DNA of 64,000 nt, from positions 62,001 to 126,000 of the forward strand of contig NZ_WWEM01000017.1 of assembly GCF_019308285.1 (NCBI RefSeq), in the 5' to 3' direction. A program made the position numbers and the translations under genes. The DNA comes from Flavobacterium quisquiliarum. GTDB taxonomy: Bacteria; Bacteroidota; Bacteroidia; Flavobacteriales; Flavobacteriaceae. Positions 28,569-46,324 of this stretch are shown in pieces; within the stretch, counting starts at the first letter, position 1; the number at the start of each line of letters is the position of its first letter. The notes under the pieces were generated by a model that was not told where the DNA came from, made no database searches, and worked only from the letters and a program-made list of their open reading frames with translations.

Positions 28569-30038
28569 TTAGTGTCCGCCACCACCGCCTTCAACGTGGT
28601 TGATACCTTGTTTTTTTAAGATTTTTGGGCAGTAGAATCCGTAAAATCCTAAGTATGCAAAACCAAGAAGCGGTACTATATAAGAGAAATGCGTCCATGT
28701 AATTCCGAAGATTCCTCCTGGGTGAGAAATATCAAAATCGCAGATACTTCCTTGAACTAATGGAATAACTCCACCTCCAAGAATCATCATAATTAGGAAA
28801 GAAGAGGCTTTTCCTGTGTTTTTTCCTAATCCTGCGATCGCTAAATCGAAGATAGAAGGCCACATAATAGATAAGAATAAACCTCCTGAGATAAAGAAGA
28901 ATTTAGCAATTTCTGGATTTGGCCAAACTAAACCTAATACCATCATTAATAATCCTGAAATACCAAAAAGCATTAAAGTTTTTCCAGCATTTTTACCACC
29001 AACGAAACTTACAGCGATAAATAGTAAAATCCAGATTGGGTAGATATAAAATGAAGAAACATCGTGTGCTGCAAAAATGTTAGCTCCGATGATTACTCCA
29101 AATGCTACAGCAGGAACGATAAATTTAAGTGCCGTGTTTACTAAGTTTGAAGTATTAAATACGTTTACACCACCATTCCAACGACCAATCATTAAACTTC
29201 CCCAATATAGTGCTATAAACGGAGCAATGGCATCTTCAAGTACATTTCCAAACTCGCTAGTGTGTAATAGAGCTGGTAAATTACTGATGATCGTTACTTC
29301 TGTTCCTACGTAAATAAAAATACCTAACATTCCAAGGTACAATTGTGGGTAATCCAGAATATTAAATTTGCTATGAGGTTCTTTAATAATAGCTTCTTCC
29401 TCTTTTTCAGGATCTTCAATTTTAGAGAAGTTCATAAAAATTGCCACAGCAATAAAAGCAAGACCAAGAATAATAAAAGGTAATTTAATATCTTCTAATG
29501 AAAGAGCTGTTTTTTTATTGTCACCCATTCCGAATAGAGCAATTCCTAATAAGATAGCTCCAATTGTTGTTCCAAAAGAATTGATACCTCCAGCAAGTGT
29601 TAAACGGTGAGCCCCAGTGTTTGGACTTCCCATTTTAATTGCTAATGGATTTGCTACGATTTGCTGGATAGAAAATCCTAAACCAACCGTAAATAAAGCG
29701 GTTAAAAAGAAAGGAAAACTTTCCATTGTTGCAGCTGGAATGAATAAAAATGATCCAACAGCAGAAAGAAGTAAGCCCGCTGAAAGTGTTCTTTTGTAGC
29801 CGAACTTTTGGAGTACGTCAAGCTTTAAAGAAACTAAAAAGAATATAATTGATCCAACGAAGTACGCTGCATAAAATGCCCACGCTACTAATTGTGATTG
29901 TACTTGCGATAACGTAAATACTTTTTTGAATACTGGAATCAGGATATCATTGGCAGAACCAACAAAACCCCAAAAGAAGAACACGATTATCAATGAGATA
30001 AACTGCCCCCATTTGGTTTGCACATTTTCTGAACTCAT
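28569..30038 (-). CDS. FHS-family sugar MFS transporter, likely for GlcNAc or a related sugar
   Basis: An inner-membrane sugar:H+ symporter of 489 residues with twelve predicted helices, of the fucose/glucose/galactose permease (FucP/GluP/NagP) family. Landmarks are FFFWGFVGSANDILIPVFKK in helix 1, YFVGSIIFFLVSLKLDVLQKFGYKRTL, the QQIVANPLAIKMG segment and TLAGGINSFGTTIGAILLG. It ends in a Gly/His-rich tail (EGGGGGH). It neighbours a LytTR two-component system and a SusC/SusD-GH18-NagB-GH20 cluster, and a copy of the putative LytTR operator lies upstream. The likely cargo is therefore GlcNAc or a GlcNAc-containing sugar. That is inference from context. Confidence 0.88.
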   Translation of the reverse strand: MSSENVQTKWGQFISLIIVFFFWGFVGSANDILIPVFKKVFTLSQVQSQLVAWAFYAAYFVGSIIFFLVSLKLDVLQKFGYKRTLSAGLLLSAVGSFLFIPAATMESFPFFLTALFTVGLGFSIQQIVANPLAIKMGSPNTGAHRLTLAGGINSFGTTIGAILLGIALFGMGDNKKTALSLEDIKLPFIILGLAFIAVAIFMNFSKIEDPEKEEEAIIKEPHSKFNILDYPQLYLGMLGIFIYVGTEVTIISNLPALLHTSEFGNVLEDAIAPFIALYWGSLMIGRWNGGVNVFNTSNLVNTALKFIVPAVAFGVIIGANIFAAHDVSSFYIYPIWILLFIAVSFVGGKNAGKTLMLFGISGLLMMVLGLVWPNPEIAKFFFISGGLFLSIMWPSIFDLAIAGLGKNTGKASSFLIMMILGGGVIPLVQGSICDFDISHPGGIFGITWTHFSYIVPLLGFAYLGFYGFYCPKILKKQGINHVEGGGGGH

Positions 30039-30134
30039 AAGAATAAGGTTAATTTTTTATTTTATTGTTTTTTGAAGACCGTAAATATATTTGTTAGGAT
30101 TATCAAAAAAAAATAAAAGGGCATAAATAATGTT

Positions 30135-30172
30135 AAATTTATACCAACGACACTCTTTTTTCAACAAAGTGT
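30135..30172 (-). promoter_or_regulatory. Putative LytTR operator before the MFS transporter gene
   Basis: On the minus strand TGTCGTTGGTATAAATTT (30135-30152) matches the susC-upstream copies in 16 of 18 positions (versus 32133-32150). Exactly 21 bp upstream lies a weak second half-site (ACACTTTGT, 30164-30172). The arrangement mirrors 32133-32171. Confidence 0.55.
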
Positions 30173-30211
30173 TAATTTTAACCTACTTATAAAATGAATT
30201 TAAGAAATGAA

Positions 30212-30913
30212 TTATTCTAAAATTTTATTTTTAACATCTTTACTGTAGTTTCTGCCTATCGGAATGTTGTAAGATTGGATCTGAACACGGTTTCCTTCGA
30301 TAGATTTTACCTTATTTAACGCTATGACATAAGATTTATGTATTCTAAGAAAGCGATCCGCGGGTAATTCTTCGGATAAAGAGGTGAGAGATTTGTGAGT
30401 AATATAGGTCTTATCTGGCGTTACAACTTTGATATATTCTTTCATTCCTTCGACAAACAAAATTTCTTCAATATTAATTTTCATCATTTTTTTATCAACT
30501 TTAATAAAAATATGAGAATCACCTTTTGCAGTTTCGACTTTAATATTGTTTTTGAGATTGTACTCGGTTGTGATCTTATTGATGCACTTTATAAATCTTG
30601 GCAGCGGAATAGGTTTTACTAGATAATCTAATACATCGAGATCATAACTTTCGGCAGCAAATTCTCTAAAAGCGGTTGTGATGATTACTTTGGTTTTGCT
30701 TTCTATTAGACTGATCAATTCAAAACCTGTCATCATTGGCATGTTAATATCTAAAAAGACGGCATCAACAGGAGTACTGTTGATAAAATCCAGCGCCTCT
30801 AAAGAGTTGTTGAATGTAGCAATAACTTCAAAATCTGTAAAATTGGTAAAATAATTTTGCAGGACTTTGATCGCTAATGGCTCATCATCAATTAACACGC
30901 ATTTAATCTTCAT
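30212..30913 (-). CDS. LytTR-family response regulator
   Basis: A two-component transcription factor of 233 residues. The receiver (1-120) has the acidic pair DD at 9-10, phospho-acceptor Asp55 (FLDINMP), the conserved TTAF Thr and the YLVKPI Lys. A LytTR DNA-binding domain follows (about 135-232), with IFIKVDKKMMKINIEEILFVEGMKEYIKV and LRIHKSYVIALNKV. Such regulators bind paired direct repeats one or two helical turns apart. Its start overlaps the end of the kinase gene by 11 bp, so the two are translated together. Position between the transporter and susC, and matching motifs before both, make it the likely regulator of the locus. Confidence 0.93.
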   Translation of the reverse strand: MKIKCVLIDDEPLAIKVLQNYFTNFTDFEVIATFNNSLEALDFINSTPVDAVFLDINMPMMTGFELISLIESKTKVIITTAFREFAAESYDLDVLDYLVKPIPLPRFIKCINKITTEYNLKNNIKVETAKGDSHIFIKVDKKMMKINIEEILFVEGMKEYIKVVTPDKTYITHKSLTSLSEELPADRFLRIHKSYVIALNKVKSIEGNRVQIQSYNIPIGRNYSKDVKNKILE

Positions 30914-32024
30914 TATGAGTAGGTATTTGTAGTCTGGTTATGTAGAAATTAAGTTTGGTTTTTTGCTTAAGGCTGAAATTATTTCGGTAAATAAGTTTAA
31001 GCCTTTTTTTGGTATTCACTAAACCAATTCCTCTCTTTGGTTTATGATTTTGTGAAATTACAAAATTATTTAAGATTTCAAAATCGAGGGTTTTATTGTC
31101 TATGACCTTGCAGTTAATTTTGATTTTTAAATCTCTATTATTTAAACCGCCATGTTTAAACGCATTTTCTACCAATGAAATAAAGATTAAGGGCGGTACA
31201 ACAACATCTTCAATATTTGATTCTAGGTTTATGGTTACTTCTACATTCTCAAAACGAAGTTTTTCGATTTCTATATAATTCTGAATGTAATCGATCTCCT
31301 TTATTAAGGGAACAAATTTGGTTCCTTTTACATCATAAAGAACATATTCCATTAAATTGGAAAGTTTGATAATCACATCTGGAACTTTTTTCGAAGATTC
31401 TAATGATAATGCGTATAGATTGTTTAAGGTATTAAAGAAAAAATGTGGCTGAATTTGGTTTTCGAGATATTTTAATTTGATTTTAAACTGATTTTCTCTC
31501 AGCGATCTGTTTCTTTCTCGTTCTTTGAGCCAAGTTAAAGTAAGATATACTGAAGATGCCATTGCTAAAACATACAACTCTCCAATACAAACAGCAACAA
31601 TATGATTGATTTCAAAAGGATGGTATTCTCGATTCGCTTCCGGCCAGATATTTTCAGATATAATGTAATAGGTAAGTGCTGTTTTAAGTAAATAAATTAC
31701 AAATAAACTCAGCAGTAATAAAAAAGTATACATAATATACTTCTGCTTTAGTACATATTTAGGAACTAAAACAAATAAATTCAGATATACCAAAGGAATA
31801 ACCAAAGAGAACTCAATCAAGTTCGATTTGAATGCATAAGGATAATCATTAAAGTAAGCTCCCCATCTTAAAAAGTTCAACATAAAATATACGCCCCAAA
31901 ACCAAATATGATTTTGTAGTTTAATATCAAATCTAACTTTTCGGATTTCTTTCAATTGACTTTTGCAGTTAGGGGTTTTTAGGTTTTTCTTAACAAAGAT
32001 GAAATATTGTGCAACTTTAAACAA
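30903..32024 (-). CDS. LytS-like sensor histidine kinase (His_kinase family)
   Basis: A membrane sensor of 373 residues. Four hydrophobic segments lie at about 40-58, 68-90, 96-122 and 140-166, with no large periplasmic domain. The His_kinase motif QPHFFFNTLNNLYAL follows, with the phospho-acceptor His194. A HATPase domain completes it: PPLIFISLVENAFKHGG and GIGLVNTKKRLKL. It phosphorylates the LytTR regulator encoded next. The signal may be a membrane-linked or cytoplasmic sugar cue, but nothing in the sequence shows this. The true start may be downstream of 32024, since the first 35 residues are poorly hydrophobic and basic. Confidence 0.9.
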   Translation of the reverse strand: MFKVAQYFIFVKKNLKTPNCKSQLKEIRKVRFDIKLQNHIWFWGVYFMLNFLRWGAYFNDYPYAFKSNLIEFSLVIPLVYLNLFVLVPKYVLKQKYIMYTFLLLLSLFVIYLLKTALTYYIISENIWPEANREYHPFEINHIVAVCIGELYVLAMASSVYLTLTWLKERERNRSLRENQFKIKLKYLENQIQPHFFFNTLNNLYALSLESSKKVPDVIIKLSNLMEYVLYDVKGTKFVPLIKEIDYIQNYIEIEKLRFENVEVTINLESNIEDVVVPPLIFISLVENAFKHGGLNNRDLKIKINCKVIDNKTLDFEILNNFVISQNHKPKRGIGLVNTKKRLKLIYRNNFSLKQKTKLNFYITRLQIPTHNED

Positions 32025-32132
32025 TTAAAGGCAAAGTCGCAATTTTTTTGAATAAAATTTCCTAAATAAACTTAAATGGTGTTTTATTTTTTAAATAGAA
32101 CGTTTTCGTAAAACGCATTATTGAATGATTTA

Positions 32133-32171
32133 TGTCGTTCGTTTAAATTTTATTGTCGTTGGTTTAATTTA
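32133..32171 (+). promoter_or_regulatory. Putative LytTR operator upstream of susC
   Basis: Two direct repeats, TGTCGTTCGTTTAAATTT (32133-32150) and TGTCGTTGGTTTAATTTA (32154-32171), start 21 bp apart, two helical turns. The cores are 9-bp GTCGTTsGT boxes with a 12-bp spacer, the architecture known for LytTR regulators such as AgrA. The second box ends 25 bp before a TAATTTTA (32196-32203) near-match to the -7 consensus, a usual activator position. A CGTTTT-N3-AAAACG inverted repeat lies just upstream at 32101-32115. Confidence 0.65.
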
Positions 32172-32230
32172 TTTTTTTTAACAATGTCTTAAGAATAATT
32201 TTACTTCATAACTAACAAAATAAAATAAAC

Positions 32231-35200
32231 ATGAAAAAAATTTTCTTAATCTTTATGATTGTTTTTACAGCGCAAACAATGTTTGCACAAGTAAAAACTG
32301 TCAAAGGTTTGGTAACTGACCAGAAAGGTTTGCCATTACCAGGAGTGACGGTCCTTATTAAAGGAAGTAACAAAGCAAGTCAGTCTGATTATGATGGATT
32401 ATATACAATCCAAGCATCTAAAAATGATGTTTTGTTGTTTTCTTACATCGGATTTAAATCTCAATCAGTTACGGTAACAGATGCAACACAGCTTAATGTT
32501 ACACTTGCTGAAGATGCTCAAAACCTTAATGAAGTTGTTGTAACGGCATTAGGTATTAAGAGACAGAAGAAAGAATTAGGTTATGCTGTTCAGGATGTAA
32601 AAGGAGACCAGTTAAACAAAGTAATCACTACCAATGTTGCTACAGCACTTTCTGGTAAGGTTGCCGGTGTTGATGTATCTATTCCTGCAACTGGTGTTGG
32701 TGGAAGTACTCGTGTTATTATTAGAGGTATTTCTAGTATTGGTGAAAGTAACCAGCCACTTTACATTGTTGATGGTGTGCCAATTGATAACTCAGGATTG
32801 AATAATGATCAAGCTGCAACAAGTAAATGGTTTGACGGTAGAGATAGTGGAGATGGAATTTCTAGTATCAACCCAAACAACATTGAAAGTTTAACTGTGC
32901 TTAAAGGTGCGGCAGCTGCGGCTTTGTATGGTTCTAGAGCGTTAAACGGAGTAATCTTGATTACTACTAAAAAAGGTAGTAAAGGAGCATTAAAAGTAGA
33001 ACTTAATAGTGGTGTAAGTTTTGATCGTGTAAATGCTAAATATAGTGATTATCAAACAGAGTATGGTTCAGGTTCTAATGGACTATTACCAGATCCGGCA
33101 AGACCTACTGAAGTTTATAGTTATACTACAAGTGCATGGGGACCTAAATTTTCTGAGACTGTAGGACAGCAAACTGTGATATTTGATGGCTCTATGAAAC
33201 CTTATGCAAGAGTTAAAAACAATATTCAAGACTTTTTTAGAACTGGAGTTACAATGACAAATGGTATCTCTTTGTCTTCAGGAAGTGAAAATGCATTTGT
33301 ACGTTTTGGATACAATAACTTAAAAAATGATGACGTAATTCCTAATACAGGTTTAGAAAGAAATGATGCAAGCTTAAATGCAACATTAAAATCTGAAAAA
33401 TTTACTTTGGATGCTAATGTGAACTATATGGTAGAAAACACTAATAATAGACCAGGGTTAGGAGATTCTCCAAATAACGTTGGATATGCTTTAAGTGGTT
33501 TGGCACCAAATATTGATCAGGCATGGTTGAAAAACTCTCAGAATCCTGAAACTGGTGATATGTATCAATGGAACAACAATGTGTACTCATTGAATCCTTA
33601 TTGGATTGTAGACAAAAATCATAATGCAACTAAGAAAAACCGTTTTATGGGTAATGTTACAGGAACATACCAATTAAAAAAATGGATGGGTTTAACTTTT
33701 AGAACAGGTTTAGATACTTATACTTTTGACTCTAAAGATTTTATGGAAGGTGGAAACACTTGGCCAGGAAGAGATAATGGTTACTTAGGTTTAGAAGGAA
33801 TTAAAGTTTCTGAAATGAATACCGATATCATTGCTACTTTTAGTGATATTAAATTAGCAGAAGATTTCACTTTCTCAGGAATTCTAGGTACAGGTAGAAG
33901 AGATTTTAGAAGAGAACAAAACTCTAGATTCGCAACTAACATTATCGAGCCAGGAACAGAGTATATTAGTAACTTCTCTAATCAGACAGAAAATGCTCCT
34001 TTAGAAACAAAAACAAGAACGAATTCAGTTTATGGTTCTGCAAAATTTGATTACAAAGGATATTTATATGCTGAATTTACAGGTAGAAATGACTGGTTTA
34101 GTGTAATTAATAAAGATGCATTTTATCCAGCTGCTTCGATGGGATTCATATTCTCTGATGCACTTGGACTTCAGAGCGATACATTCTCTTATGGTAAGTT
34201 AAGAGGTTCTTGGGCACAGGTTTCAAATGCGCCGGGTGCTTACAAAAATGCATTAAATTATACAACTTATTCTTCATATAACGGAGGAAGTGTGGTAAAC
34301 ATTAAAAATACTTCTGCACCAAATCCAAATTTAACATACCAATCTAAAACTGGAATTGAGTTTGGTTTTGAAACGGCTTTCTTCAAAAACAGATTAAGAG
34401 CTGATATTACAGTTTACCGCGAAGATACTTCAGATCAAACTATAGATTTACCTTCATCTGCAACATCTGGATATGAATTTATCTCTGTAAATGCTGGTAA
34501 GTTACGTAACGAAGGTATCGAGGTGTTTTTATCTGGTACACCAATCAAAACAAAAGATTTTGAATGGGGAATTGATTTGAACTTCTCTAGAAATAAAAAC
34601 TCAATTGTTTCTTTACATCCAGATATTGATACTTATACTATTTCTGAAGCTCGTTGGGCTGGTGCGGCGATCGTTGCGCAGGTTGGAGGACAATATGGAA
34701 CTATTATGGGGAAAGATTTCTTAAGAACACCATCTGGAGAAAAAATTGTTGGAGCTAACGGTATGCCTCTATTTACAGATAATAAAGTTGCTTTAGGAAA
34801 AGGTCTTCCTGATTGGGCAGCAGGTTTGACAAACCGTTTCTCTTATAAAGGAATTACGCTTCAATTTTTAATTGATATGAAATTTGGAATGGATGTATAT
34901 TCTATGACAAATGCACTTGCGGCTCAAAAAGGTCTTTTGGATATTACAACAGAAGGAAGAGATGCTTATAATGCAGCAAGAGCTGAAGCTGTTGCAAATG
35001 ATCCAAACTTTAGCCAGTCTACATGGGTTCCTACTGCTGGTTACGTAGTACAAGGAGTTGTAAATACGGGTACAGCAGAAAATCCAAACTATGTGCAAAA
35101 TACAAGACCAGTAAATCCTCAAGATTATTGGAGCACTGTTTTCAACAACACACCAGCACCGTTTGTTTATGATGCTTCTTACGTAAAACTTAGAGAGCTA

Positions 35201-35416
35201 AGTTTAGGATATACAATTCCTGGAAGTGTTTTCGCTGGATCAAAAATTAGTTCAATTTATGTTTCAGCATTTGCTAGAAATTTATTGACTTTTAATAAAG
35301 ATTTACCAAACGTTGATCCTGAATCTATGTATACTTCAGGTAATGGACAAGGTTTTGAGTATGGTTCTTTACCATTTAGAAGATCGTATGGTTTTAATCT
35401 TAAAGTTACATTCTAA
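32231..35416 (+). CDS. SusC/RagA-family TonB-dependent outer-membrane transporter
   Basis: An outer-membrane importer of 1061 residues that works with the SusD protein encoded next to take up oligosaccharides, powered by TonB. A signal peptide (to about residue 20) is followed by a CarboxypepD_reg-like domain (about 22-105, VKGLVTDQKGLPLPGVTV). The TonB box region is NEVVVTALGIKRQKKELGYAVQ. The plug has VRIRG-like VIIRGISSIGESNQPLYIVDGVPID and LKGAAAAALYGSRALNGVILITTKKG, and a 22-strand barrel ends FRRSYGFNLKVTF. Neighbouring GH18, GH20 and NagB genes point to GlcNAc-containing glycans as cargo. The 12-bp gap to susD and the upstream LytTR-type repeats suggest an inducible operon. Confidence 0.96.
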   Translation: MKKIFLIFMIVFTAQTMFAQVKTVKGLVTDQKGLPLPGVTVLIKGSNKASQSDYDGLYTIQASKNDVLLFSYIGFKSQSVTVTDATQLNVTLAEDAQNLNEVVVTALGIKRQKKELGYAVQDVKGDQLNKVITTNVATALSGKVAGVDVSIPATGVGGSTRVIIRGISSIGESNQPLYIVDGVPIDNSGLNNDQAATSKWFDGRDSGDGISSINPNNIESLTVLKGAAAAALYGSRALNGVILITTKKGSKGALKVELNSGVSFDRVNAKYSDYQTEYGSGSNGLLPDPARPTEVYSYTTSAWGPKFSETVGQQTVIFDGSMKPYARVKNNIQDFFRTGVTMTNGISLSSGSENAFVRFGYNNLKNDDVIPNTGLERNDASLNATLKSEKFTLDANVNYMVENTNNRPGLGDSPNNVGYALSGLAPNIDQAWLKNSQNPETGDMYQWNNNVYSLNPYWIVDKNHNATKKNRFMGNVTGTYQLKKWMGLTFRTGLDTYTFDSKDFMEGGNTWPGRDNGYLGLEGIKVSEMNTDIIATFSDIKLAEDFTFSGILGTGRRDFRREQNSRFATNIIEPGTEYISNFSNQTENAPLETKTRTNSVYGSAKFDYKGYLYAEFTGRNDWFSVINKDAFYPAASMGFIFSDALGLQSDTFSYGKLRGSWAQVSNAPGAYKNALNYTTYSSYNGGSVVNIKNTSAPNPNLTYQSKTGIEFGFETAFFKNRLRADITVYREDTSDQTIDLPSSATSGYEFISVNAGKLRNEGIEVFLSGTPIKTKDFEWGIDLNFSRNKNSIVSLHPDIDTYTISEARWAGAAIVAQVGGQYGTIMGKDFLRTPSGEKIVGANGMPLFTDNKVALGKGLPDWAAGLTNRFSYKGITLQFLIDMKFGMDVYSMTNALAAQKGLLDITTEGRDAYNAARAEAVANDPNFSQSTWVPTAGYVVQGVVNTGTAENPNYVQNTRPVNPQDYWSTVFNNTPAPFVYDASYVKLRELSLGYTIPGSVFAGSKISSIYVSAFARNLLTFNKDLPNVDPESMYTSGNGQGFEYGSLPFRRSYGFNLKVTF

Positions 35417-35428
35417 AAAATAGAAATT

Positions 35429-36946
35429 ATGAAATTTAAAAATATATTATTAGCTGCACTTGTAACTTTTGCTACGGTAAGCTGTACAGACAATTTTGAC
35501 GAACTGGAAAAAGATCCAGTTGCGTTATCTGCAAATCCTGCAGGACAGCTTTCATTTACTCAATTGTGTATGTCTGGTGACGGATATTACCAATGGAGAG
35601 CTAACCTTATTTATTCAGGAGGTTTTGTGCAACACTACGCAGGAGCGTGGAATGTAACAGAATTTGGAAGTAAGTTTAAGAAAAACGATGACTACGCAAC
35701 AGCAATATGGAGAAATGGATATGCTAATGAATTAAAAGGTATCGTAGACGTTATTGAAAAAACAAGCGGAAAAGCTGATATGGTAAATATGAATGCGGTA
35801 GCAAAAATCATGAGAGTAATGATTGCACAACGTATTACCGATTTATATGGCGATTGTCCTTATTCAGAAGCTGGTCAAGGTTTCTCTAAAGGAATTGTAA
35901 CTCCAAAATATGATAAACAAGAGGATATTTACAATCAATTCTTTGCTGAATTAGAAGAGGCTTTTGTACAATTAAATGCAGGAGGCGGAGCTATTAATGG
36001 AGATTTGTTTTATAACGGAGATGTTAGCAAATGGAAAAAATTAGCGAATACAATTCGTTTGCGTTTAGCGATGAGAATCTCAGAAGTAAAACCAGCTGAA
36101 GCTGAAAAACAAGCAAAAGCAGCGTTTCAAAATGGAGTTTTCGAAAGTAACCTTGATAACTGTATCATGAAACATTTGGATTATCCTTTCAATGATACTC
36201 CTGGGGCACTTGATTTTAGAGGAAACGGACTTTCTTATGCACTTATAGGAAATGAAAATGGTGACCACTTTAGTAGTTTAATGATTAATTTCTTGAAGAA
36301 TAACGGAGATCCTAGATTAACTATGCTTGCAACTCCAAAAACTGGTGGTGCAGCTGGTGGAGCTCCTCTTCCTGGAGAAGATTTGTACATAGGAAATACT
36401 CCAGGGCTTTTTCAATGGGAGATGCCAGGTGGTTCAAACGCAATATCTGGAATCCAGCCTTATTTGAAATTAAGAACCACACCATTTTTGCATGTTAGTT
36501 ATTCAGAGTCACAATTATTGTTAGCTGAAGCTGCATATAGAGGATGGGTTACAGGCTCAGCGGCTGATTACTATAAAAAAGGTGTTGAAGCAGGTATTAG
36601 ACAATTAGAAATTTATGGTGCTACACCAGCAACTCCTGCGGCGATTAATACTTATTTGACAGCTAAACCTTTAGTGGCAGGATCTGAAAAAGAACAAATT
36701 GCAACACAACTTTGGGTTACTTACTTATTCAATAGTATTGAAGCATATTCAAACTGGAGAAGAACAGGTTTCCCGCAATTGTTGCCAATTACCAATCCAG
36801 ATTCTGAAACAAATGGTGTTACGCCAAAACGTTTATACTATCCAAATGATGAAATGCAGAAGAATGGAGTGAACTATACAGACGCTTTATCAAGAATGGG
36901 CGGAACAAACGACTGGCTGAATAAAGTTTGGTGGGATGTAAACTAA
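35429..36946 (+). CDS. SusD/RagB-family outer-membrane lipoprotein
   Basis: The glycan-binding partner of SusC on the cell surface, 505 residues. The signal ends in a lipobox (ATVSCTD, Cys near residue 20). The helical body carries ITDLYGDCPYSEAGQG, NTIRLRLAMRISEV, the QLLLAEAAYRGW segment and the C-terminal RRTGFPQLLPI and PKRLYYPNDEM motifs, which mark the SusD-like_2 type. Binding residues cannot be assigned by eye. It follows susC by 12 bp. After its stop comes an inverted repeat that encloses the start codon of the GH18 gene. Confidence 0.94.
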   Translation: MKFKNILLAALVTFATVSCTDNFDELEKDPVALSANPAGQLSFTQLCMSGDGYYQWRANLIYSGGFVQHYAGAWNVTEFGSKFKKNDDYATAIWRNGYANELKGIVDVIEKTSGKADMVNMNAVAKIMRVMIAQRITDLYGDCPYSEAGQGFSKGIVTPKYDKQEDIYNQFFAELEEAFVQLNAGGGAINGDLFYNGDVSKWKKLANTIRLRLAMRISEVKPAEAEKQAKAAFQNGVFESNLDNCIMKHLDYPFNDTPGALDFRGNGLSYALIGNENGDHFSSLMINFLKNNGDPRLTMLATPKTGGAAGGAPLPGEDLYIGNTPGLFQWEMPGGSNAISGIQPYLKLRTTPFLHVSYSESQLLLAEAAYRGWVTGSAADYYKKGVEAGIRQLEIYGATPATPAAINTYLTAKPLVAGSEKEQIATQLWVTYLFNSIEAYSNWRRTGFPQLLPITNPDSETNGVTPKRLYYPNDEMQKNGVNYTDALSRMGGTNDWLNKVWWDVN

Positions 36947-36961
36947 AACTAAATTAGAGTT

Positions 36962-37022
36962 ATGCCTAATAAGGTAGTATTAAAATCAAAAATATGAGAA
37001 AAAATAAAGCCTTATTAGGCAT
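36962..37022 (+). promoter_or_regulatory. Inverted repeat enclosing the GH18 start codon
   Basis: ATGCCTAATAAGG (36962-36974) and CCTTATTAGGCAT (37010-37022) are perfect 13-bp inverted arms. The 35-nt loop contains the translation start region and the ATG (36994). The right arm is codons 6-10 of the GH18 gene. In mRNA this would form a hairpin around the initiation site. Confidence 0.6.
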
Positions 37023-38019
37023 CCTCTTCTTTATAAGTTCACTTATTTCTGTTTACAGCTGTACTTCACAAAAAGATTCAGAAATTGACAATGTTAAAAA
37101 GAAAACAGCACGAGTTGTTGGATATTTATCTACGGATAATTTTGATAAAATGACATCAATTCAGTTTTGTAAATTAACACATCTCAATGTGGCATTTGCA
37201 AATCCTGACAAAAATGGAAACATTATTTTCTCAGGAGATATTGATGCACTTGTTAAATATGCCAAATCAGTTAATCCGAATATTGTTATAAGTATTTCTT
37301 TGGCAGGTGGTGTAATTTCAGAAGAACAAGCTTCAAACTGGTCATGGTTAATTGATAAACCTGAGAATAGGCCAGCTTTAATTCAAAACATTGTAAATTT
37401 TGTAGAGTTACATAAGCTGGATGGCGTTGATGTAGACTTAGAATGGGATGCCGTAACAGCTGGTTACAGCGGTTTTGTTCTGGAATTAAAAAAGAGCATG
37501 ATTGAGCATAAAAAGCTCTTGACTGCCGCGCTTCCAAACAATTCCCGTTTTGAAAATATAAATGCAGCCGCTTTAGAAGCTTTCGATTTTATCAATGTCA
37601 TGGCTTATGACTACACTGGTCCTTGGGCGCCAAACAAACCTGGTCAGCATAGTTCTTTTGCTTTTGCTAAGGAAGGAATTGATTTTTGGCATAAACTTCA
37701 AAATGTTCCTACTGAAAAACTGACTCTTGGTGTTCCTTTTTATGGTTATAATTTTACGAACCCAGAAGTTACAAGTGCTAAATATAGTGAGATTGTAGCA
37801 GCAGGAAAACAATTTGCTGAACAAGATGAATTAGGTAAAATCTATTATAACGGAAGACCAACTATCGCACAAAAAGTAGAATATGCATCTCAAAATACAG
37901 GAGGAATCATGATTTGGGAATTAGCGCAGGATTCATTTGATGAGTATTCTTTATTGGAAGTTATTCATAAAAAATACACATCATTAAAAGTAAAAACTAC
38001 AAGTCTTTGCGGCAACTAA
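36994..38019 (+). CDS. GH18-family glycoside hydrolase lipoprotein (chitinase or endo-N-acetylglucosaminidase-like)
   Basis: A cell-envelope enzyme of 341 residues. The signal ends with a lipobox (SVYSCTS, Cys near residue 23). The GH18 barrel shows NIVISISLAG in strand 3 and the catalytic DGVDVDLEWD with D143, D146, D148 and the acid E150. Substrate-assisted residues follow in INVMAYDYTGPW and the final GGIMIWELAQD. There is no carbohydrate-binding module and no T9SS C-terminal domain, so it is membrane-anchored, not freely secreted. GH18 members cut chitin, chitooligosaccharides or the core of N-glycans; the GH20 and NagB genes downstream fit any of these. Confidence 0.88.
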   Translation: MRKNKALLGILFFISSLISVYSCTSQKDSEIDNVKKKTARVVGYLSTDNFDKMTSIQFCKLTHLNVAFANPDKNGNIIFSGDIDALVKYAKSVNPNIVISISLAGGVISEEQASNWSWLIDKPENRPALIQNIVNFVELHKLDGVDVDLEWDAVTAGYSGFVLELKKSMIEHKKLLTAALPNNSRFENINAAALEAFDFINVMAYDYTGPWAPNKPGQHSSFAFAKEGIDFWHKLQNVPTEKLTLGVPFYGYNFTNPEVTSAKYSEIVAAGKQFAEQDELGKIYYNGRPTIAQKVEYASQNTGGIMIWELAQDSFDEYSLLEVIHKKYTSLKVKTTSLCGN

Positions 38020-38154: not shown

Positions 38155-40092
38155 ATGAAAGGTGCTTTAGATATAAAACCTGATATTAGTTACAAAAGCG
38201 CAGGAAAGTTTGAAGAAACTCGATTTGAAAAAATTCATAATGAAATCTTCAAAAGTTCTGTCGAAGCTTCTGTAATTGTAGCTCAGGAAATTGCGCAGCT
38301 AATTCGATCTAAACAAGAGAAAAATAAATCTTGTGTTTTAGGATTGGCTACAGGTTCTTCTCCTATAAAAGTTTACGAAGAACTGGTGAGAATGCATAGA
38401 GAAGAAGGACTAAGTTTTAGCAATGTAATCACTTTTAATTTGGATGAATATTATCCAATGACAAAAGAGAACAATCAGAGTTATCACTATTTCATGCATG
38501 AGCATCTTTTTAATCATATTGATATCAAACCTGAAAATATTAATATTCCTGATGGTACGATTGCGATTGAGGAAATCAATCAGTATTGTATCGATTATGA
38601 AATGAATATTAAAAACGCAGGTGGTCTTGATTTTCAATTATTAGGAATTGGGCGTACTGGACATGTTGGTTTTAATGAGCCAGGTTCACACATCAATTCT
38701 GGAACCCGAATTATCACATTGGATCATATCACGAGAGTTGATGCTTCATCTGCTTTTAATGGTATTGATAATGTACCGAAACGTGCCATTACAATGGGAG
38801 TTTCAACAATTATGAGATCAAAACGTATTGTTTTGATGGCATGGGGACAAAATAAGGCAGATATTATTAAGAGAACCATTCAGGGAGATATTAGTTCAGA
38901 GATTCCAGCTACATTTTTGCAAAATCATGCAAATGCCACTTTTGTTTTAGATCAGTCTGCAGCTTCAGAATTAACTCGTTTTAAAACACCTTGGTTGGTT
39001 GGTGAATGTCTTTGGACTCCAGAAATGAAGAGTAAAGCGATTGTTTGGTTGTGTCAAAAAACAAAACAATCTATTCTAAAATTGACAGACCGTGATTATA
39101 ATAATAATGGAATGTCTGATCTTTTGGCTCAGGAAGGTTCTGCTTATGATATGAATATCAATATGTTCAATATTTTACAGCATACCATTACCGGATGGCC
39201 GGGAGGAAAACCAAACACAGATGATTCGCATCGCCCAGAAAGAGCAAATCCGGCAAAAAAGAGAGTGATTCTTTTTAGTCCGCATCCAGATGATGACGTG
39301 ATTTCTATGGGAGGAACTTTTTCTAAATTAATCAAACAAGGTCACGACGTACATGTCGTGTATCAAACTTCTGGAAATATTGCAGTTTCTGATGAAGAAG
39401 CATTGAAATTTGCTGAAGTAGCCAGTGATTTTGTTGGTGAAGGAAAAGCAGATATTAATTTCCAGGCAGTTATTGATTTCTTGAATAATAAATCGGAAAA
39501 CCAAATTGATTCTTTAGAAGTTCGAAAATTAAAAGGACTTATCAGAAGAAGGGAATCTTATGGCGCAACAAGATATATTGGACTTAAAGACGAGAACACA
39601 CACTTTTTAGATCTTCCTTTTTATGAAACAGGACAGGTTAAAAAGAATCCGTTAGGTCAAGAAGATATTGAAATTGTAAAAGATATTATTGCTAAAATAA
39701 AACCGCATCAGGTTTTTGCAGCGGGAGATCTAGCAGATCCGCACGGCACGCATGAAGTCTGTCTGAATGCCATTTTTGCTGCTTTAAAAGAACTTAAACC
39801 AGAACCTTATATGAAAGACTGCTGGTTGTGGCTTTACAGAGGAGCTTGGCACGAATGGGATATTCATGAAATTGATATGGCTGTTCCATTAAGTCCATCT
39901 GAAGTTCTATTAAAACGCCATGCTATTTTGTTTCATCAATCACAGAAAGACAGAGTTATGTTTCAAGGAAATGATTCCAGAGAGTTTTGGGTGAGAGCAG
40001 AGGATCGAAATAAAAATACGGCGATTTTATATGATGAATTAGGTTTGGCTGAATATGAAGCGATAGAAGCCTTTAAGCGTTTTGATTACTAA
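38155..40092 (+). CDS. nagB: Glucosamine-6-phosphate deaminase fused to a LmbE/PIG-L deacetylase domain
   Basis: A cytoplasmic bifunctional-looking protein of 645 residues. Residues about 25-290 are NagB, which converts glucosamine-6-phosphate to fructose-6-phosphate and ammonia. They show GLATGSSPIKVYEEL, VITFNLDEYYPM and LLGIGRTGHVGFNEPGS. Residues about 365-640 are a LmbE/PIG-L zinc de-N-acetylase domain with PHPDDDVISMGG (His377, Asp379, Asp380) and the third metal site HGTH (His530, His533), so it looks catalytically intact. NagB alone is about 265 residues in E. coli. This fusion occurs in other Bacteroidota. No nagA gene is present here, which raises the question whether the LmbE domain deacetylates the GlcNAc substrate. 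Confidence 0.92.
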   Translation: MKGALDIKPDISYKSAGKFEETRFEKIHNEIFKSSVEASVIVAQEIAQLIRSKQEKNKSCVLGLATGSSPIKVYEELVRMHREEGLSFSNVITFNLDEYYPMTKENNQSYHYFMHEHLFNHIDIKPENINIPDGTIAIEEINQYCIDYEMNIKNAGGLDFQLLGIGRTGHVGFNEPGSHINSGTRIITLDHITRVDASSAFNGIDNVPKRAITMGVSTIMRSKRIVLMAWGQNKADIIKRTIQGDISSEIPATFLQNHANATFVLDQSAASELTRFKTPWLVGECLWTPEMKSKAIVWLCQKTKQSILKLTDRDYNNNGMSDLLAQEGSAYDMNINMFNILQHTITGWPGGKPNTDDSHRPERANPAKKRVILFSPHPDDDVISMGGTFSKLIKQGHDVHVVYQTSGNIAVSDEEALKFAEVASDFVGEGKADINFQAVIDFLNNKSENQIDSLEVRKLKGLIRRRESYGATRYIGLKDENTHFLDLPFYETGQVKKNPLGQEDIEIVKDIIAKIKPHQVFAAGDLADPHGTHEVCLNAIFAALKELKPEPYMKDCWLWLYRGAWHEWDIHEIDMAVPLSPSEVLLKRHAILFHQSQKDRVMFQGNDSREFWVRAEDRNKNTAILYDELGLAEYEAIEAFKRFDY

Positions 40093-40241: not shown

Positions 40242-42302
40242 ATGAAATATCTATTTGTACTATTGTTTGCGGGCTTATCTGCAAGCGCTCAGGTTAAAAA
40301 AGAGCAGCTCAATCTTATGCCTTGGCCTCAGAGCGTGGTTATTAATGACGGTAATTTTGCCTTAACTAAAAGTTTTAAAGTAAATATTACTGGTAATCCA
40401 AATCCAAGAATTTTTGGAGGAGTAACGCGTTTTCTGCGCCGTCTAGATGGTAGAACAGGTATGTTTTTCGGACAGGGATTTATCACAAAATTAAATGAAG
40501 TCCCAAATGCCGAATTGCAGATCAATTGTACAAAAAGTGGTAAAATTGGTTTATACGAGGACGAAAGTTATCATTTAGATATTACATCAAATAAAATTAC
40601 GCTTAATGCTTCGAGCGATTTAGGAGCTTTGCACGGTTTAGAAACATTATTGCAAATGCTTCAAAACAATGCTTCATCGTATTATTTTCCTGCTTCAAAA
40701 ATTTCTGATTTTCCAAGATTTACTTGGAGGGGGTTAATGATTGATGTTTCAAGACATTTTCAGCCAGTTGATGTAATCAAAAGAAACATCGATGCATTGG
40801 CAGCAATGAAAATGAATGTTTTTCACTGGCATTTAGTTGACGATCAAGGCTGGAGAATTGAAATGAAAAAACATACGAAGTTTATAGAATTAGCTTCAGA
40901 TGGACTTTATTATACACAAGAGGAAATTAAAAATATCGTAAAATATGCAGATGATCGTGGTATTTTAATTGTTCCAGAAATAGATGTTCCGGGTCACGGA
41001 TCAGCAATTTTAACAGCTTACCCAGAAATTGGCAGCAAAGTGATTACGCTGAAAGGAGGAACATCCGAAAAAAATATTGAAGGTACAGCAATCGCTACCT
41101 ATGGAGTTGAAAGAAATGCGGGAATTTTTTCTCCGACATTAGATCCTTCAAATCCTAAAACATACCAAATTTTAAGTGGTGTTTTTGATGAGGTTTGTCC
41201 TTTATTTCCAGGAGATTATTTCCATATTGGAGGAGATGAAAATGAAGGGAAAGATTGGGATGCCAATCCGAAAATTCAAGAATTTAAAAAGAAACACAAC
41301 TTAAAAACCAATCACGAATTACAGACTTATTTCACCATGCAGTTGGCACCGATGTTAAAGAAGCACGGAAAACAGTTAATGGGATGGGAAGAAATATTAA
41401 CGAAGGATTTATCTAAAGAAGCGATTGTGCATTCTTGGAGAGGTCCAAACGAAGGAATGACAGCTGGACAATCATTGGTAGATGCAGTTAAAAAAGGATA
41501 TAAAACAGTTTTATCAAACGGCTATTATATCGATTTAATGTATCCAATTGCAAGTCACTATTTAAATGATCCAATGCCAAAAGGAGTTAATTTAACAAAT
41601 GAAGAAAAAGCGAGAATTCTTGGAGGTGAAGCAACAATGTGGACTGAATTGGTTACTTCTGAAACCATAGATTCAAGACTTTGGCCAAGAACGGCTGCAA
41701 TTGCCGAAAGACTTTGGTCTGCTGAAGATGTGGTAGATGTTGAGAACATGCGTAAACGTTTAGAAACAATTTCTTTCCGATTAGAAGAATTAGGAATTAC
41801 ACATATCCGTAATAAAGATGTTATCCTGAGAAACATTGCAAACAATCAAAATATTAAAGCGCTTGAAGAATTCTCCTATGTAAGTGAACCATTAAAAGGA
41901 TATACCCGTAACAAAGGCGGAACAGAATATCAAATGTATTCTCCGTTTACTTTATTCGCAGATGCTTGCGGTCCAGATTCAAAAGATTCTTTAGCATTTG
42001 ATGCGGCAGTAAATCAGTATTTGGCAAATAAATCAGCGGAGAATAAAGCTAAAGTTGCAGCATTTTTTAATAAATGGATTGCAGTGCACAAAGATTTAAC
42101 GGATTTAAGTGCAAATGCACCTTTAGTGCAGCCAATATTACCATTGTCTAAAAAGTTAAGTGATGCTTCTCAGGAATTATTATTGGTTTTGGATAATAAA
42201 TCGACTTCTGGTAATTTGAAAAAGTTAGTTGAAGATTGTAATACAAAAGATCATGCAGATGTTGAACTAGCTGTTTATGCTAGCTTGAAGAAATTATTGT
42301 AA
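40242..42302 (+). CDS. GH20 beta-N-acetylhexosaminidase
   Basis: An exported exo-enzyme of 686 residues that removes terminal GlcNAc (or GalNAc) from chitooligosaccharides or glycans. The signal peptide is MKYLFVLLFAGLSASAQ. An N-terminal GH20b domain (about 25-150) precedes the catalytic barrel, with FTWRGLMIDVSRHFQPVDVIK, FHWHLVDDQGWRIE, PEIDVPGHGSA and the catalytic pair Asp332-Glu333 in HIGGDENEG. Further landmarks are MGWEEIL and LGGEATMWTELV. The C-terminal 180 residues are helical and unassigned. It has no lipobox and no T9SS domain, so it is probably periplasmic. It is the last gene of the locus. Confidence 0.95.
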   Translation: MKYLFVLLFAGLSASAQVKKEQLNLMPWPQSVVINDGNFALTKSFKVNITGNPNPRIFGGVTRFLRRLDGRTGMFFGQGFITKLNEVPNAELQINCTKSGKIGLYEDESYHLDITSNKITLNASSDLGALHGLETLLQMLQNNASSYYFPASKISDFPRFTWRGLMIDVSRHFQPVDVIKRNIDALAAMKMNVFHWHLVDDQGWRIEMKKHTKFIELASDGLYYTQEEIKNIVKYADDRGILIVPEIDVPGHGSAILTAYPEIGSKVITLKGGTSEKNIEGTAIATYGVERNAGIFSPTLDPSNPKTYQILSGVFDEVCPLFPGDYFHIGGDENEGKDWDANPKIQEFKKKHNLKTNHELQTYFTMQLAPMLKKHGKQLMGWEEILTKDLSKEAIVHSWRGPNEGMTAGQSLVDAVKKGYKTVLSNGYYIDLMYPIASHYLNDPMPKGVNLTNEEKARILGGEATMWTELVTSETIDSRLWPRTAAIAERLWSAEDVVDVENMRKRLETISFRLEELGITHIRNKDVILRNIANNQNIKALEEFSYVSEPLKGYTRNKGGTEYQMYSPFTLFADACGPDSKDSLAFDAAVNQYLANKSAENKAKVAAFFNKWIAVHKDLTDLSANAPLVQPILPLSKKLSDASQELLLVLDNKSTSGNLKKLVEDCNTKDHADVELAVYASLKKLL

Positions 42303-42708
42303 AATTAGTTTGAATTAGTGTTTAGTAATTTATTGCCTTTATTAATTTAAAATGATTTATCTCTGCTGGAGCAACACTGGCAGAGATATTTACAAAAATA
42401 TATTTTTAGTTTATTGTGTCTGGAATTAAATATATTTTCAAGAGTTAATAACAAAGTTCATGAAAATTAAGTGAGGTAAAATTTTTGGTGGGTTAAAATT
42501 GAGTTTGGTTATTTATTTTTTAATCTAAATTTTATTTCAAAACAATGTACCGACTTTAGGTAATTTGTTATTTGGTTTTTACCTAAACAAGGACATTTAT
42601 AAACCTGACAATTCGTTGTCAGGTTTTTTTGTTTAAAAAAGTATTCAATTTAAGGAGGATGGAAATCTTTTAATACTATTTTTACCATAACTAATCAACC
42701 CCAAAATA
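42303..42708. other. 406-bp intergenic region with three inverted repeats
   Basis: No gene is visible. A hairpin lies at 42358-42388 (TATCTCTGC/GCAGAGATA, likely the end of the GH20 transcript). A TTTAGGTAA/TTACCTAAA pair lies around 42553-42595. A strong terminator ends the stretch at 42601-42633. A -7 box could not be identified. Confidence 0.55.
42601..42633 (+). terminator. Strong intrinsic terminator with TTCG loop
   Basis: Perfect 11-bp arms (42601-42611 AAACCTGACAA with 42616-42626) close a TTCG tetraloop and a T-run follows. It lies 299 bp after the GH20 stop, so it may end a longer 3' region or a separate small RNA. Confidence 0.85.
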
Positions 42709-43407
42709 ATGAAAGGATTTTTTATTTTTAAGCTTGTATTTTCTATGGTTGGCGCAGGTCTATTGGCTGGAGCTGTTTATTTTTATTTTGATAAAAAGAT
42801 ATTTTTAGAAAAAGCAGAAAGTACGCAGGGAACTGTTATCGAAATGATTGCCAGAAGATCAGATAATTCTACAACATATTGTCCAGTAGTAAGTTTTAAA
42901 ACAAAATTAGGACAAGAAATTACTTTTACATCTTCTATTAGCAGTAATCCTCCAAGTTATACTGTCAATGAAAAAGTTAAAATTTTATATGATCCAGCAG
43001 ATCCAAAAGAAGCTGTTATAAACGGATTTGCTTCTTTATGGCTTGTTCCATTGATATTAAGTACAATTGGAACCATATTCTTTTTAATTGGCAGTCTTAG
43101 TTTTTTATTTGGATATTTAAAGAAAAGAAAAGCTCAAAATTTACGTGATACAGGAAAATCTGTTACAGCAAAATTTACACAAGTACAATTAAATACCAGC
43201 TATACTTCAAACGGAAGACATCCTTACCAAATTTTAAGTCAATGGCAAGATCCAAAAACCAATGATTTATATGTTTTTAAAAGCGATTACATCTGGTTTG
43301 ATCCAACAGAATTTGTGAAAACAGATACAGTAAGAGTTTTTATTGATCCAGAGAATCCATCAAAATATACTGTGGATATTTCTTTTCTGCCAGCTCTCAA
43401 AAATTAA
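42709..43407 (+). CDS. DUF3592-family membrane protein
   Basis: A 232-residue membrane protein of unknown function. One hydrophobic segment lies at the N-terminus (FKLVFSMVGAGLLAGAVYFYF, about 5-25) and a second centrally (LVPLILSTIGTIFFLIGSLSFLFGYL, about 112-137). The domain between them carries the repeat-like phrase TTYCPVVSFKTKLGQEITFTSSI and VNEKVKILYDPADPKEAVING, typical of DUF3592. A second, similar half follows (TVRVFIDPENPSKYTVD). The role of the family is not known. The gene is monocistronic, between the TTCG-loop terminator and a hairpin at 43431. Confidence 0.82.
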   Translation: MKGFFIFKLVFSMVGAGLLAGAVYFYFDKKIFLEKAESTQGTVIEMIARRSDNSTTYCPVVSFKTKLGQEITFTSSISSNPPSYTVNEKVKILYDPADPKEAVINGFASLWLVPLILSTIGTIFFLIGSLSFLFGYLKKRKAQNLRDTGKSVTAKFTQVQLNTSYTSNGRHPYQILSQWQDPKTNDLYVFKSDYIWFDPTEFVKTDTVRVFIDPENPSKYTVDISFLPALKN

Positions 43408-43430
43408 AGTAATAATATAAATTATATCGT

Positions 43431-43473
43431 AAGTTCGCTATTGTTTCTGAAGGAACAGTAGCGAACTTTTGAG
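43431..43473 (+). terminator. Probable terminator after the DUF3592 gene
   Basis: AAGTTCGCTA pairs with TAGCGAACTT, with an inner TTGTT/GAACAG-type extension, followed by TTTT. The T-run is short, so termination may be weak. Confidence 0.55.
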
Positions 43474-43533
43474 TTAAAATTGACTTATAAAATTTTGATT
43501 ACTTTTGGGTTTCAATATATTTTTTCAGAATTC

Positions 43534-44307
43534 ATGCAGAAACTTTTCAGTCTAACACTATTCCTTTTCACCTTTTCATTAAGCCAAGCTCAAAACAAAT
43601 TCGGAAATCCCGAAGTTGATCCTGTTCAAATTCAGAAAACGTACGAACAATGGTCGGTTTATCAGAATAAAAATATAATGCTTTCGAGAGATTTCACAGC
43701 TCTTGATGTTTCTTCCAAAGAAATTACCAAAGAAGTTTTTTTAGATCAATTAGCAAATGGAAGTTTCATTCCAATCCGATTAAAATCAGATGCTTCGGTT
43801 TATTATTATAAACTTTTCAAAATTCAGCCCAAAACAGATACCAGTATAAAAGCAACTATCAATCAAATTGGTTTTGATGCTTATAAGAATTATAAAATGG
43901 AAGGAACGGTTTTCCCTAAATTCTCGTTTAAAGATTTAGATGGAAATTTGGTGACCAATGAATCCATGAAAGGGAAAATAATTGTAATTAAATGTTGGTA
44001 CATTCATTGTACGCCTTGCATAAAAGAGTTTCCACAGGTTAATAAACTTGTAGAAGAGTATAAGGATAGAAAAGATATTATTTTTATAAGTTTAGCTGAA
44101 GATTCACCAGAAGAATTAAAAACATTCTTAGCTAGAAAACCGCTTTCTTATGCTGTAATTCCTGACATGAAAGAATATATGAATGAAGCATTACAATTGA
44201 ATTCATTTCCAACGCATTTTATTCTAAACAAAAAAGGATTGATTTCGAAAGTGTTACCAAATTTTGAGAGTTTAGAAGTGGCTTTGGCGAAGGAAAGTAA
44301 ATTTTAG
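43534..44307 (+). CDS. TlpA-like thioredoxin-fold protein, exported
   Basis: From the ATG at 43534 the protein has 257 residues with a signal peptide (MQKLFSLTLFLFTFSLSQAQ), so it is periplasmic. The C-terminal half is a TlpA/ResA/peroxiredoxin-like thioredoxin domain (about 125-257): FPKFSFKDLDGNLVTNESMKGK, then the redox motif CTPC in KCWYIHCTPCIKEFP, and the cis-Pro region NSFPTHFILNKKG. It likely reduces or oxidises periplasmic protein thiols. The N-terminal 110 residues are unassigned. An in-frame start at 43480 would place extra residues before the signal peptide and is unlikely. Confidence 0.88.
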   Translation: MQKLFSLTLFLFTFSLSQAQNKFGNPEVDPVQIQKTYEQWSVYQNKNIMLSRDFTALDVSSKEITKEVFLDQLANGSFIPIRLKSDASVYYYKLFKIQPKTDTSIKATINQIGFDAYKNYKMEGTVFPKFSFKDLDGNLVTNESMKGKIIVIKCWYIHCTPCIKEFPQVNKLVEEYKDRKDIIFISLAEDSPEELKTFLARKPLSYAVIPDMKEYMNEALQLNSFPTHFILNKKGLISKVLPNFESLEVALAKESKF

Positions 44308-44420
44308 TTTTGAACTATTCGAATTTTTCGAGTAGTTGAAATTAATATCGAATTATGCAGATTTTCCAGATAGTTGAATTTTTAATTCAATGTGTAAAAA
44401 TGAAGATTAAAGGCACAGTT

Positions 44421-44549
44421 TGTCATTTCGACCGAAGGGAGAAATCGCACTAGAAACTCCGCATAGAATGTCGCTAATCTTTGTCGAATCCCGCGTGTGA
44501 TTTGCTTCGCCAGTTCGCTATTGCTCGGGTTTCCTTCGTCGAAATGACA
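44421..44549. repeat. Palindrome-ended dispersed element (TGTCATTTCGAC family)
   Basis: TGTCATTTCGAC (44421-44432) and its exact complement GTCGAAATGACA (44538-44549) bound a 129-bp element. Similarity extends inward as GAAGGGA against TCCTTC. It carries no gene. Elements with these ends are, from memory, widespread between genes in Bacteroidota. Confidence 0.65.
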
Positions 44550-44618
44550 AGATTACGCAGTAATCAACTTCAAAAAATAAAAATTTGCGCCTTCGCGACT
44601 TTGCGAGAACCCTTCATC

Positions 44619-46324
<1,706 letters not shown>

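Follow-up and report, generated by a model that had tools for sequence, protein, structure and literature searches.

Two promoters of a chitin utilization locus in Flavobacterium quisquiliarum, those of a susC gene and of a sugar transporter gene, carry short direct repeats that are very probably the operator of CusR, the LytTR-type response regulator encoded between them together with its kinase CusS. The window analyzed is a 64-kb stretch of the 6.17-Mb genome (G000:C9:62001-126000), and positions are counted from its first nucleotide. From the arrangement, conservation, and placement of the repeats, we strongly infer that CusR binds them; we also infer its phosphorylation, its action as an activator rather than a repressor, and the identity of its signal.

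Direct Repeats at the susC and Transporter Promoters

The susC promoter carries three repeats on the plus strand: the weak-type R1 (AACGCATTATTGAA, 32112..32125), recognized by sequence and matrix, and the strong R2 (TGTCGTTCGTTTAA, 32133..32146) and R3 (TGTCGTTGGTTTAA, 32154..32167), recognized by sequence and pattern scan. The transporter promoter carries two on the minus strand, a strong repeat (TGTCGTTGGTATAA, 30139..30152; sequence and pattern scan) and a weak one (AACACTTTGTTGAA, 30160..30173; pattern scan). The order is weak-strong-strong at susC and weak-strong at the transporter, with a period of 21 bp throughout. The original prediction had described two susC-side repeats 21 bp apart, TGTCGTTCGTTTAAATTT at 32133 and TGTCGTTGGTTTAATTTA at 32154. 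Both are real by sequence and script, but the description was incomplete, since it overlooked R1. Its repeat on the opposite strand at the transporter (TGTCGTTGGTATAAATTT, minus strand 30152-30135) and the weak partner 21 bp away (minus strand 30173-30160) are present as described, and a LytTR regulator and its kinase are indeed encoded between the two sites (CusR, 30212-30913; CusS, 30903-32024).

Known LytTR sites are direct repeats of about 9 bp, placed about 12 bp apart and close to the −35 region (PMC6193735, PMC4064291). In repeat length and spacing, the likeness to this architecture, already pointed out from the two sites of the window, holds at both promoters and at their orthologues. 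The core of R2, CGTTCGT, is also the core of the AlgR site CCGTTCGTC (PMC4064291); the other strong repeats here read CGTTGGT.

The paired sites are rare in the genome. A weak-strong pattern allowing up to three mismatches has exactly two matches in the 6.17 Mb, both without mismatch and both at the reported sites, and its reversed control has none; the strong-strong pattern at the same tolerance has one match and its reversed control two. With a weak-strong matrix built from the sites of 109 relatives, only the two known places in the window score above 8 bits, and none in ten codon-shuffled windows exceeds 4 bits. Lone repeats, on the other hand, are common. A one-repeat pattern with up to two mismatches matches 31 times and its reversed control 58 times, and the lone matches elsewhere in the genome (C26, C31, and others) were discarded on that count.

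Promoter Register

The sigma-A −7 consensus of Flavobacterium is TAnnTTTG (PMC9723704). A −7-like box, TAATTTTAC, lies in the susC promoter at 32196..32204 on the plus strand, with R3 starting 42 bp and R2 starting 63 bp away from it, and another, TATATTTAC, lies in the transporter promoter at 30081..30089 on the minus strand, 63 bp from the strong repeat. A clear −33 box is not apparent. The second repeat, which is R2 at susC and the strong repeat at the transporter, starts exactly 63 bp from TANNTTTA[CT] in 118 of the 119 susC sites and in all 80 transporter sites. This common distance places all repeats on one lattice, with starts 84, 63, and 42 bp before the −7 box. The lattice period equals two helical turns. 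At the transporter the 42-bp place is empty, and the nearest repeat starts 63 bp from the predicted box as against 42 bp at susC.

Across 108 distinct sites, the information per column is 1.43 bits in R1, 1.37 in the spacer between R1 and R2, 1.74 in R2, 0.59 in the spacer between R2 and R3, and 1.44 in R3. The R2-R3 spacer is free; the R1-R2 spacer is itself conserved.

Conservation within Flavobacterium

A CusR protein search of 150 genomes of the genus returned 44 full-length orthologues with 74-100% identity, that of the present genome included, and one further orthologue truncated at the end of its contig. The loci of the 43 other genomes make up a first set (L039-L081). TGTCGTTNG is matched there with at most one mismatch upstream of the CusRS pair in 43/43 loci; in L077, where CusS was not found, the match stands upstream of cusR. 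A strong-strong matrix trained on 41 of the 43 scores above 14 in 42 and falls below this in L073. A second set holds the best 80 of 155 CusR loci from a collection of named species (L105-L184), many of them the same species as in the first set, and the sample is not independent. The susC-side site is kept in 79 of the 80 by matrix, L171 being truncated by a contig end. On the transporter side, the weak repeat AACAC[AT]TTGTTGAA is found in all 80. By pattern, 78 of these loci also have the strong repeat at a distance of 21 bp; L160 and L168 keep the weak repeat and have a degenerate strong one. The original prediction had staked itself on conservation of the motif at orthologous loci, and such conservation is found on both sides.

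The surroundings of the sites vary more than the sites. Forty of the 80 named loci carry a second site before a second susC; the locus of F. johnsoniae CI04 (L182) has two sites on the susC side. A susC start follows at 97-108 bp in 118 of the 119 susC sites, 43 of these genes belonging to one lineage and 75 to another that shares 30-35% identity with it; the first site of L106 has no susC start in reach. L069 lacks susCD and its site precedes nagB, and in L101 the site precedes the gene of a glycoside hydrolase (GH) of family GH20. This presence before differing first genes indicates that the site tracks the regulator pair and not a particular downstream gene. Some species have more than two sites, with a second susC, nagB or GH20 as the first gene, or a distal receptor operon. 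The transporter-side pair likewise persists though 66 loci have a close homologue of the transporter and the other 14 a distant one (<60% identity). It can also be observed in both locus sets that promoter and regulator remain the same but the SusC/SusD cassette (30-35%) and the transporter (~50% identity) have been swapped for distant homologues.

A scan of 398 genomes of the genus for the strong-strong pattern with up to two mismatches matched 123, and the reversed pattern matched 12. Among the 150 genomes searched for CusR, regulator and pair occur together in 42, the pair alone in one (G059), CusR alone in three (G045, G117, and G046 with its cut gene), and neither in 104. The G059 pair, with two mismatches, was taken as a chance match, as was one in G288:C4 (L096) that lies inside a reading frame.

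Related Sites in Other Genera, at a Paralogue, and at a Distal Operon

Within 397 genomes of the family, 22 outside the genus match CusR at E ≤1e-75, and 20 of these 22 loci were examined. CusR identity is 79% in L227 and 49-55% in the remaining 19; a divergent SusC follows the pair in 12 of the 20 and NagB in four. A strict pattern, in which a repeat is followed 41-43 bp later by a −7-like box, is found in 11 of the 20, with a distance of 42 bp in ten and 43 bp in L230, and these loci have extra repeat-like blocks 21 and 42 bp upstream. In addition to these 11, L227 has a repeat with a −7-like box, which brings the loci with such a lattice to 12 of 20.

The present genome also encodes a paralogous pair, CusRS2, with 47% identity. 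Its locus (L083, G000:C13:250000-265000) has a repeat pair at about 9110-9200 and includes genes for GH92, GH130, an alpha-fucosidase, a sodium:solute symporter, and a NagB-like protein; it looks like a locus for N-glycan use. The pair in 23 CusRS2 loci resembles TGATGTTTAGAGCTG / TGTCGTCCGTCTAAA, again 21 bp apart, and the distance from the second repeat to TANNTTTA is 42 bp in 20 of them and 43 bp in two, L082 giving no fit. If each site is read by the regulator encoded next to it, one would expect just this: a regulator that is related yet distinct and, beside it, a site that is likewise related yet distinct and keeps the register.

Seven genomes (L089-L095) carry a full weak-strong-strong site before a distal receptor operon, with the 63-bp register in all seven. 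This operon, whose domains were scanned in L091, encodes a TonB-dependent receptor and a DUF4249 protein together with two proteins of unknown type, and it lies near a polynucleotide phosphorylase gene (scanned in L089). The site at the chitin utilization locus is found in six of the seven and was not found in G207, a 70%-complete genome.

CusR as the Predicted Reader of the Repeats

The repeats suggest a mechanism in which CusS, a LytS-type kinase, would be activated when chitin oligosaccharides are available and would phosphorylate CusR. In the manner of LytTR proteins, CusR-P would then occupy adjoining places on a single face of the DNA, following the 21-bp direct repeats. At susC it would fill the weak R1 and the strong R2 and R3. 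The last of these begins 42 bp from the −7 box, next to the expected −33 region, where CusR could touch RNA polymerase and recruit it from just upstream of that region, like LytTR activators. At the transporter it would fill the weak-strong pair and leave the proximal place empty, probably giving a weaker activation over a basal level.

Published work on F. johnsoniae bears on this mechanism. Deletion of cusS-cusR abolishes growth on chitin and ChiA, the multimodular chitinase (PMC5127042). All other chitin-defective mutants of that study have ChiA at the wild-type level, and its text includes the transporter mutant among them, so the signal does not require uptake through that transporter. 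The same mutant also fails on glucose (PMC5127042), and the transporter therefore cannot be purely chitin-induced. As for the sensor, the hydropathy profile of CusS has some three strongly hydrophobic segments and gives no sign of a large periplasmic domain, which makes sensing within the membrane appear more likely than sensing by a soluble periplasmic domain; PMC5127042 predicts that CusS senses periplasmic oligosaccharides.

Other readings of the repeats have to be weighed against binding and activation by CusR. CusR might bind as a repressor when unphosphorylated, or with opposite sign at the transporter and at susC. The empty promoter-proximal place at the transporter and the need for this gene on glucose, which requires it to be on without chitin (PMC5127042), would fit such a scheme, yet the phenotype of the cusS-cusR deletion is that of a lost activator (PMC5127042), and the repeats stop upstream of where the −33 region is expected and do not reach over the −7 box. 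Repression is on this evidence unlikely. It is quite unlikely, too, that another transcription factor, such as a different LytTR protein or the output of an extracytoplasmic function (ECF)/anti-sigma system, occupies the repeats with CusSR acting upstream of it. The pair co-occurs with the CusR gene and adjoins cusR, and CusRS2 adjoins its own slightly different pair in the same register; these facts speak for the adjacent regulator, even though the genome has 23 LytTR-domain matches and the dependence of ChiA on CusSR (PMC5127042), with no site at chiA, means that for one target or more the control may be indirect.

That the repeats are promoter features without a dedicated regulator, for instance upstream A/T elements, or a chance repetition is hardly credible. 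The region is A/T-rich and lies directly upstream of a −7-like box, as such features would, but the cores contain G/C and are conserved (R2 and R3) where the spacer between them varies, the genome has only the one strong-strong and two weak-strong matches, and the same register recurs at the susC, transporter, distal, and paralogue promoters.

Several observations weigh against CusR as the reader of these sites. The weak and strong repeats disagree at many positions. By the matrices, chiA has neither a strong-strong nor a weak-strong site in any of seven stretches (L185-L191), in which chiA was recognized by its length, GH18 motif, and neighbors, one of the seven being scanned with Pfam. The gap between GH20 and chiA contains a terminator-like hairpin and conserved upstream blocks of chiA's own (around ATCAGTAATAGTAATATTTAT). 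Control of chiA by CusR-type sites was rejected on this result (0/7), though ChiA needs CusSR in F. johnsoniae, and the link between them is either read-through or an intermediate regulator. Nor do the 19 stretches with other LytTR genes of the genome show a clear excess of 21-bp repeats. With simple repeats filtered, the mean best score there is 14.4 at 21 bp and 10.3 at other periods, compared with 12.6 and 9.8 in 16 control pieces; unfiltered, the values are 15.1 and 10.5, compared with 14.6 and 10.0. A general 21-bp rule for the LytTR loci of this genome was rejected, as the controls score alike.

Outside the genus, L245 has repeats without a clear −7 box, and no site was found in seven of the 20 loci examined, three with NagB next to the pair (L232, L233, L244) and four with neither NagB nor SusC (L235, L237-L239). 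A transporter-side site was found in none of the ten adjacent cases tested. Finally, common descent confounds both conservation and co-occurrence, and the latter is not counted as independent evidence; moreover, 41 of the first 43 loci trained the matrix that was applied to the 80 named loci, many of them from the same genomes. The original prediction held that CusRS controls both uptake steps of the locus. Within Flavobacterium, the conserved sites on both sides favor this, and the transporter half of the claim is genus-level.

A Second Promoter Element

In the susC promoters it is CGTTTTC, and not a CusR repeat, that is conserved most strongly. This block belongs to a second element, AACGTTTTCG (32099..32108, plus strand), which starts 11 bp before R1 at fixed spacing. 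Among the first sites 78 of 79, and among the second sites 40 of 40, have CGTTTTC starting 32 bp before R2; a similar block was found in 0/80 transporter promoters and 0/23 paralogue promoters. The exact AACGTTTTCG is present in 67 of 79 first and 37 of 40 second sites, and the palindrome GAAAACGTTTTC in 14 and 37, respectively. Six of the seven distal sites have the element, with a variant in L093; it is missing in six of 14 diverged loci examined (L069, L076-L078, L080, L081).

Genome-wide, AACGTTTTCG has 27 exact matches and its reversed pattern 108, and GAAAACGTTTTC at one mismatch has 55 matches per strand and its reversed pattern 211, so that the counts alone are uninformative. By an open reading frame (ORF) mask, 18 of the 27 AACGTTTTCG matches are intergenic, the susC site included, or 18 of 24 if a four-copy stretch is counted once; assuming that such a mask leaves a quarter of the genome intergenic, the latter has a probability of about 4e-7. 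The four-copy stretch is about 1.7 kb long and lies on four contigs (G000:C18:1526, C21:58042, C35:352436, C40:77670), perhaps as a mobile element or through an assembly effect. Neighbors of AACGTTTTCG include pfkA, a phosphoglycerate kinase-like gene, pgi, alanine and glutamate dehydrogenases, an aromatic amino acid hydroxylase, acyl-CoA dehydrogenase-like and acyl-CoA ligase-like genes, GH28, GH31, an alpha-amylase-like gene, and a TonB receptor, while others are unnamed (besides the window, L293, L295, L299, L301, L305, L306, L310-L313, and L317). In 30 of 31 genomes each, the loose form stands before pfkA in 24 loci, exact in 20, and before pgi in six, exact in five.

The case for the second element is made by its intergenic placement, neighboring genes, fixed spacing at susC, and conservation at pfkA, and not by match counts. 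It is probably the operator of another, global carbon regulator of Flavobacterium, which at the chitin utilization locus would bind it on the susC promoters only. More tentatively, the susC promoters could be two-input gates that combine the CusR lattice with a global carbon operator (AACGTTTTCG/GAAAACGTTTTC), the transporter having the CusR input only; this arrangement is possible but somewhat doubtful. If it were true, the outer-membrane uptake genes would take two inputs and the inner-membrane transporter, needed on glucose too, would take one.

The Locus and Its Genes

The locus is the published chitin utilization locus (ChiUL), and its regulators are CusS and CusR. In F. johnsoniae, ChiUL includes the transporter Fjoh_4565, CusR Fjoh_4564, CusS Fjoh_4563, and CusC-II Fjoh_4562 (PMC5127042). 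Its synteny is recovered in the window, with an MFS (major facilitator superfamily) transporter, CusR, CusS, a divergent SusC-SusD, NagB, and GH20. The two loci share the gene order transporter, CusR, CusS, divergent SusC/SusD, GH18, NagB, GH20 (Larsbrink 2016, PMC5127042) and differ in that the window locus is without a second SusC/D pair.

On the minus strand, the MFS-type sugar transporter (28569..30038; MFS_1 PF07690, 50.8 bits) is the homologue of Fjoh_4565 by position and is similar to FucP/GluP/NagP, with scores under the NCBIfam cut-offs. CusR (30212..30913) joins a receiver (REC) domain (Response_reg PF00072, 69.5 bits, cut-off 30.2) to a LytTR DNA-binding domain (PF04397, 75.6 bits, cut-off 22.6), both above curated cut-offs; it falls below the NCBIfam BtsR equivalog NF008677 (129.5 bits, cut-off 246). 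CusS (30903..32024), whose start codon is uncertain, is a membrane histidine kinase of LytS type (His_kinase PF06580, 86.2 bits), and the cusS and cusR genes overlap, so that a PF06580-type kinase adjoins the regulator. The plus strand encodes the SusC-type TonB-dependent transporter, CusC-II-like by position (32231..35416; TIGR04056, 617.5 bits, above cut-off), a SusD-like lipoprotein (35429..36946; PF12771, 286 bits), a GH18 enzyme, ChiB-like by position (36994..38019; PF00704, 143.5 bits), NagB, a glucosamine-6-phosphate deaminase-like protein with a PIG-L domain (38155..40092; NF002557, 1097 bits, above cut-off), and a GH20 beta-hexosaminidase (40242..42302; PF00728, 320.9 bits).

The chiA gene is not at its usual place 3' of GH20 in the window, the rest of the genome not having been searched for it. 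GH20 is followed by two smaller ORFs and then by the ABC-F-like gene that comes after chiA in relatives; the window locus is a reduced ChiUL at this place. With chiA and a second SusC/D pair missing from their usual places (40242-46324), chitin oligosaccharides, and not crystalline chitin, may be the substrate of this strain.

Comparison with Known Systems and Significance

The usual regulators of polysaccharide utilization loci are SusR-type proteins, hybrid two-component systems, and ECF sigma/anti-sigma pairs. ChiUL resembles these in having a local regulator beside susC/susD that switches the locus, and differs in using two separate proteins, a LytS-type kinase and a LytTR regulator, with probable operators made of short direct repeats. 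In standing next to a transporter gene, this kinase-regulator pair is also reminiscent of BtsSR. With AgrA, AlgR, BtsR/YpdB, and the streptococcal LytTR systems, CusR shares the REC-LytTR or LytTR build and direct repeats of some 9 bp with gaps of some 12 bp, which gives the 21-bp period; the start of R3 at susC also fits a place just upstream of the −35 region. Unlike these regulators, it has three repeats in register instead of two and a Bacteroidota-type −7 box, TAnnTTTA[CT], and its targets are SusC-type outer-membrane uptake genes.

Control of ChiUL by CusSR is already known (PMC5127042). The words 'lyttr' and 'promoter' do not occur in the main text of that paper, and none of the papers listed from the open-licence literature deals with a binding site of CusR or of a LytTR protein in a polysaccharide utilization locus. 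Measured against this literature, what is new is the operator, together with its three-repeat register and its spread.

These sites indicate that a LytTR pair can run a SusC/SusD locus, and they do so with a fixed promoter geometry set by the distances of the repeats from the −7 box. The candidate CusR sites make the control of a known chitin system directly testable, and a defined operator opens the way to regulon prediction across the Flavobacteriaceae. The AACGTTTTCG element, if it is a global carbon operator, would offer a hint as to how these bacteria rank their carbon sources.

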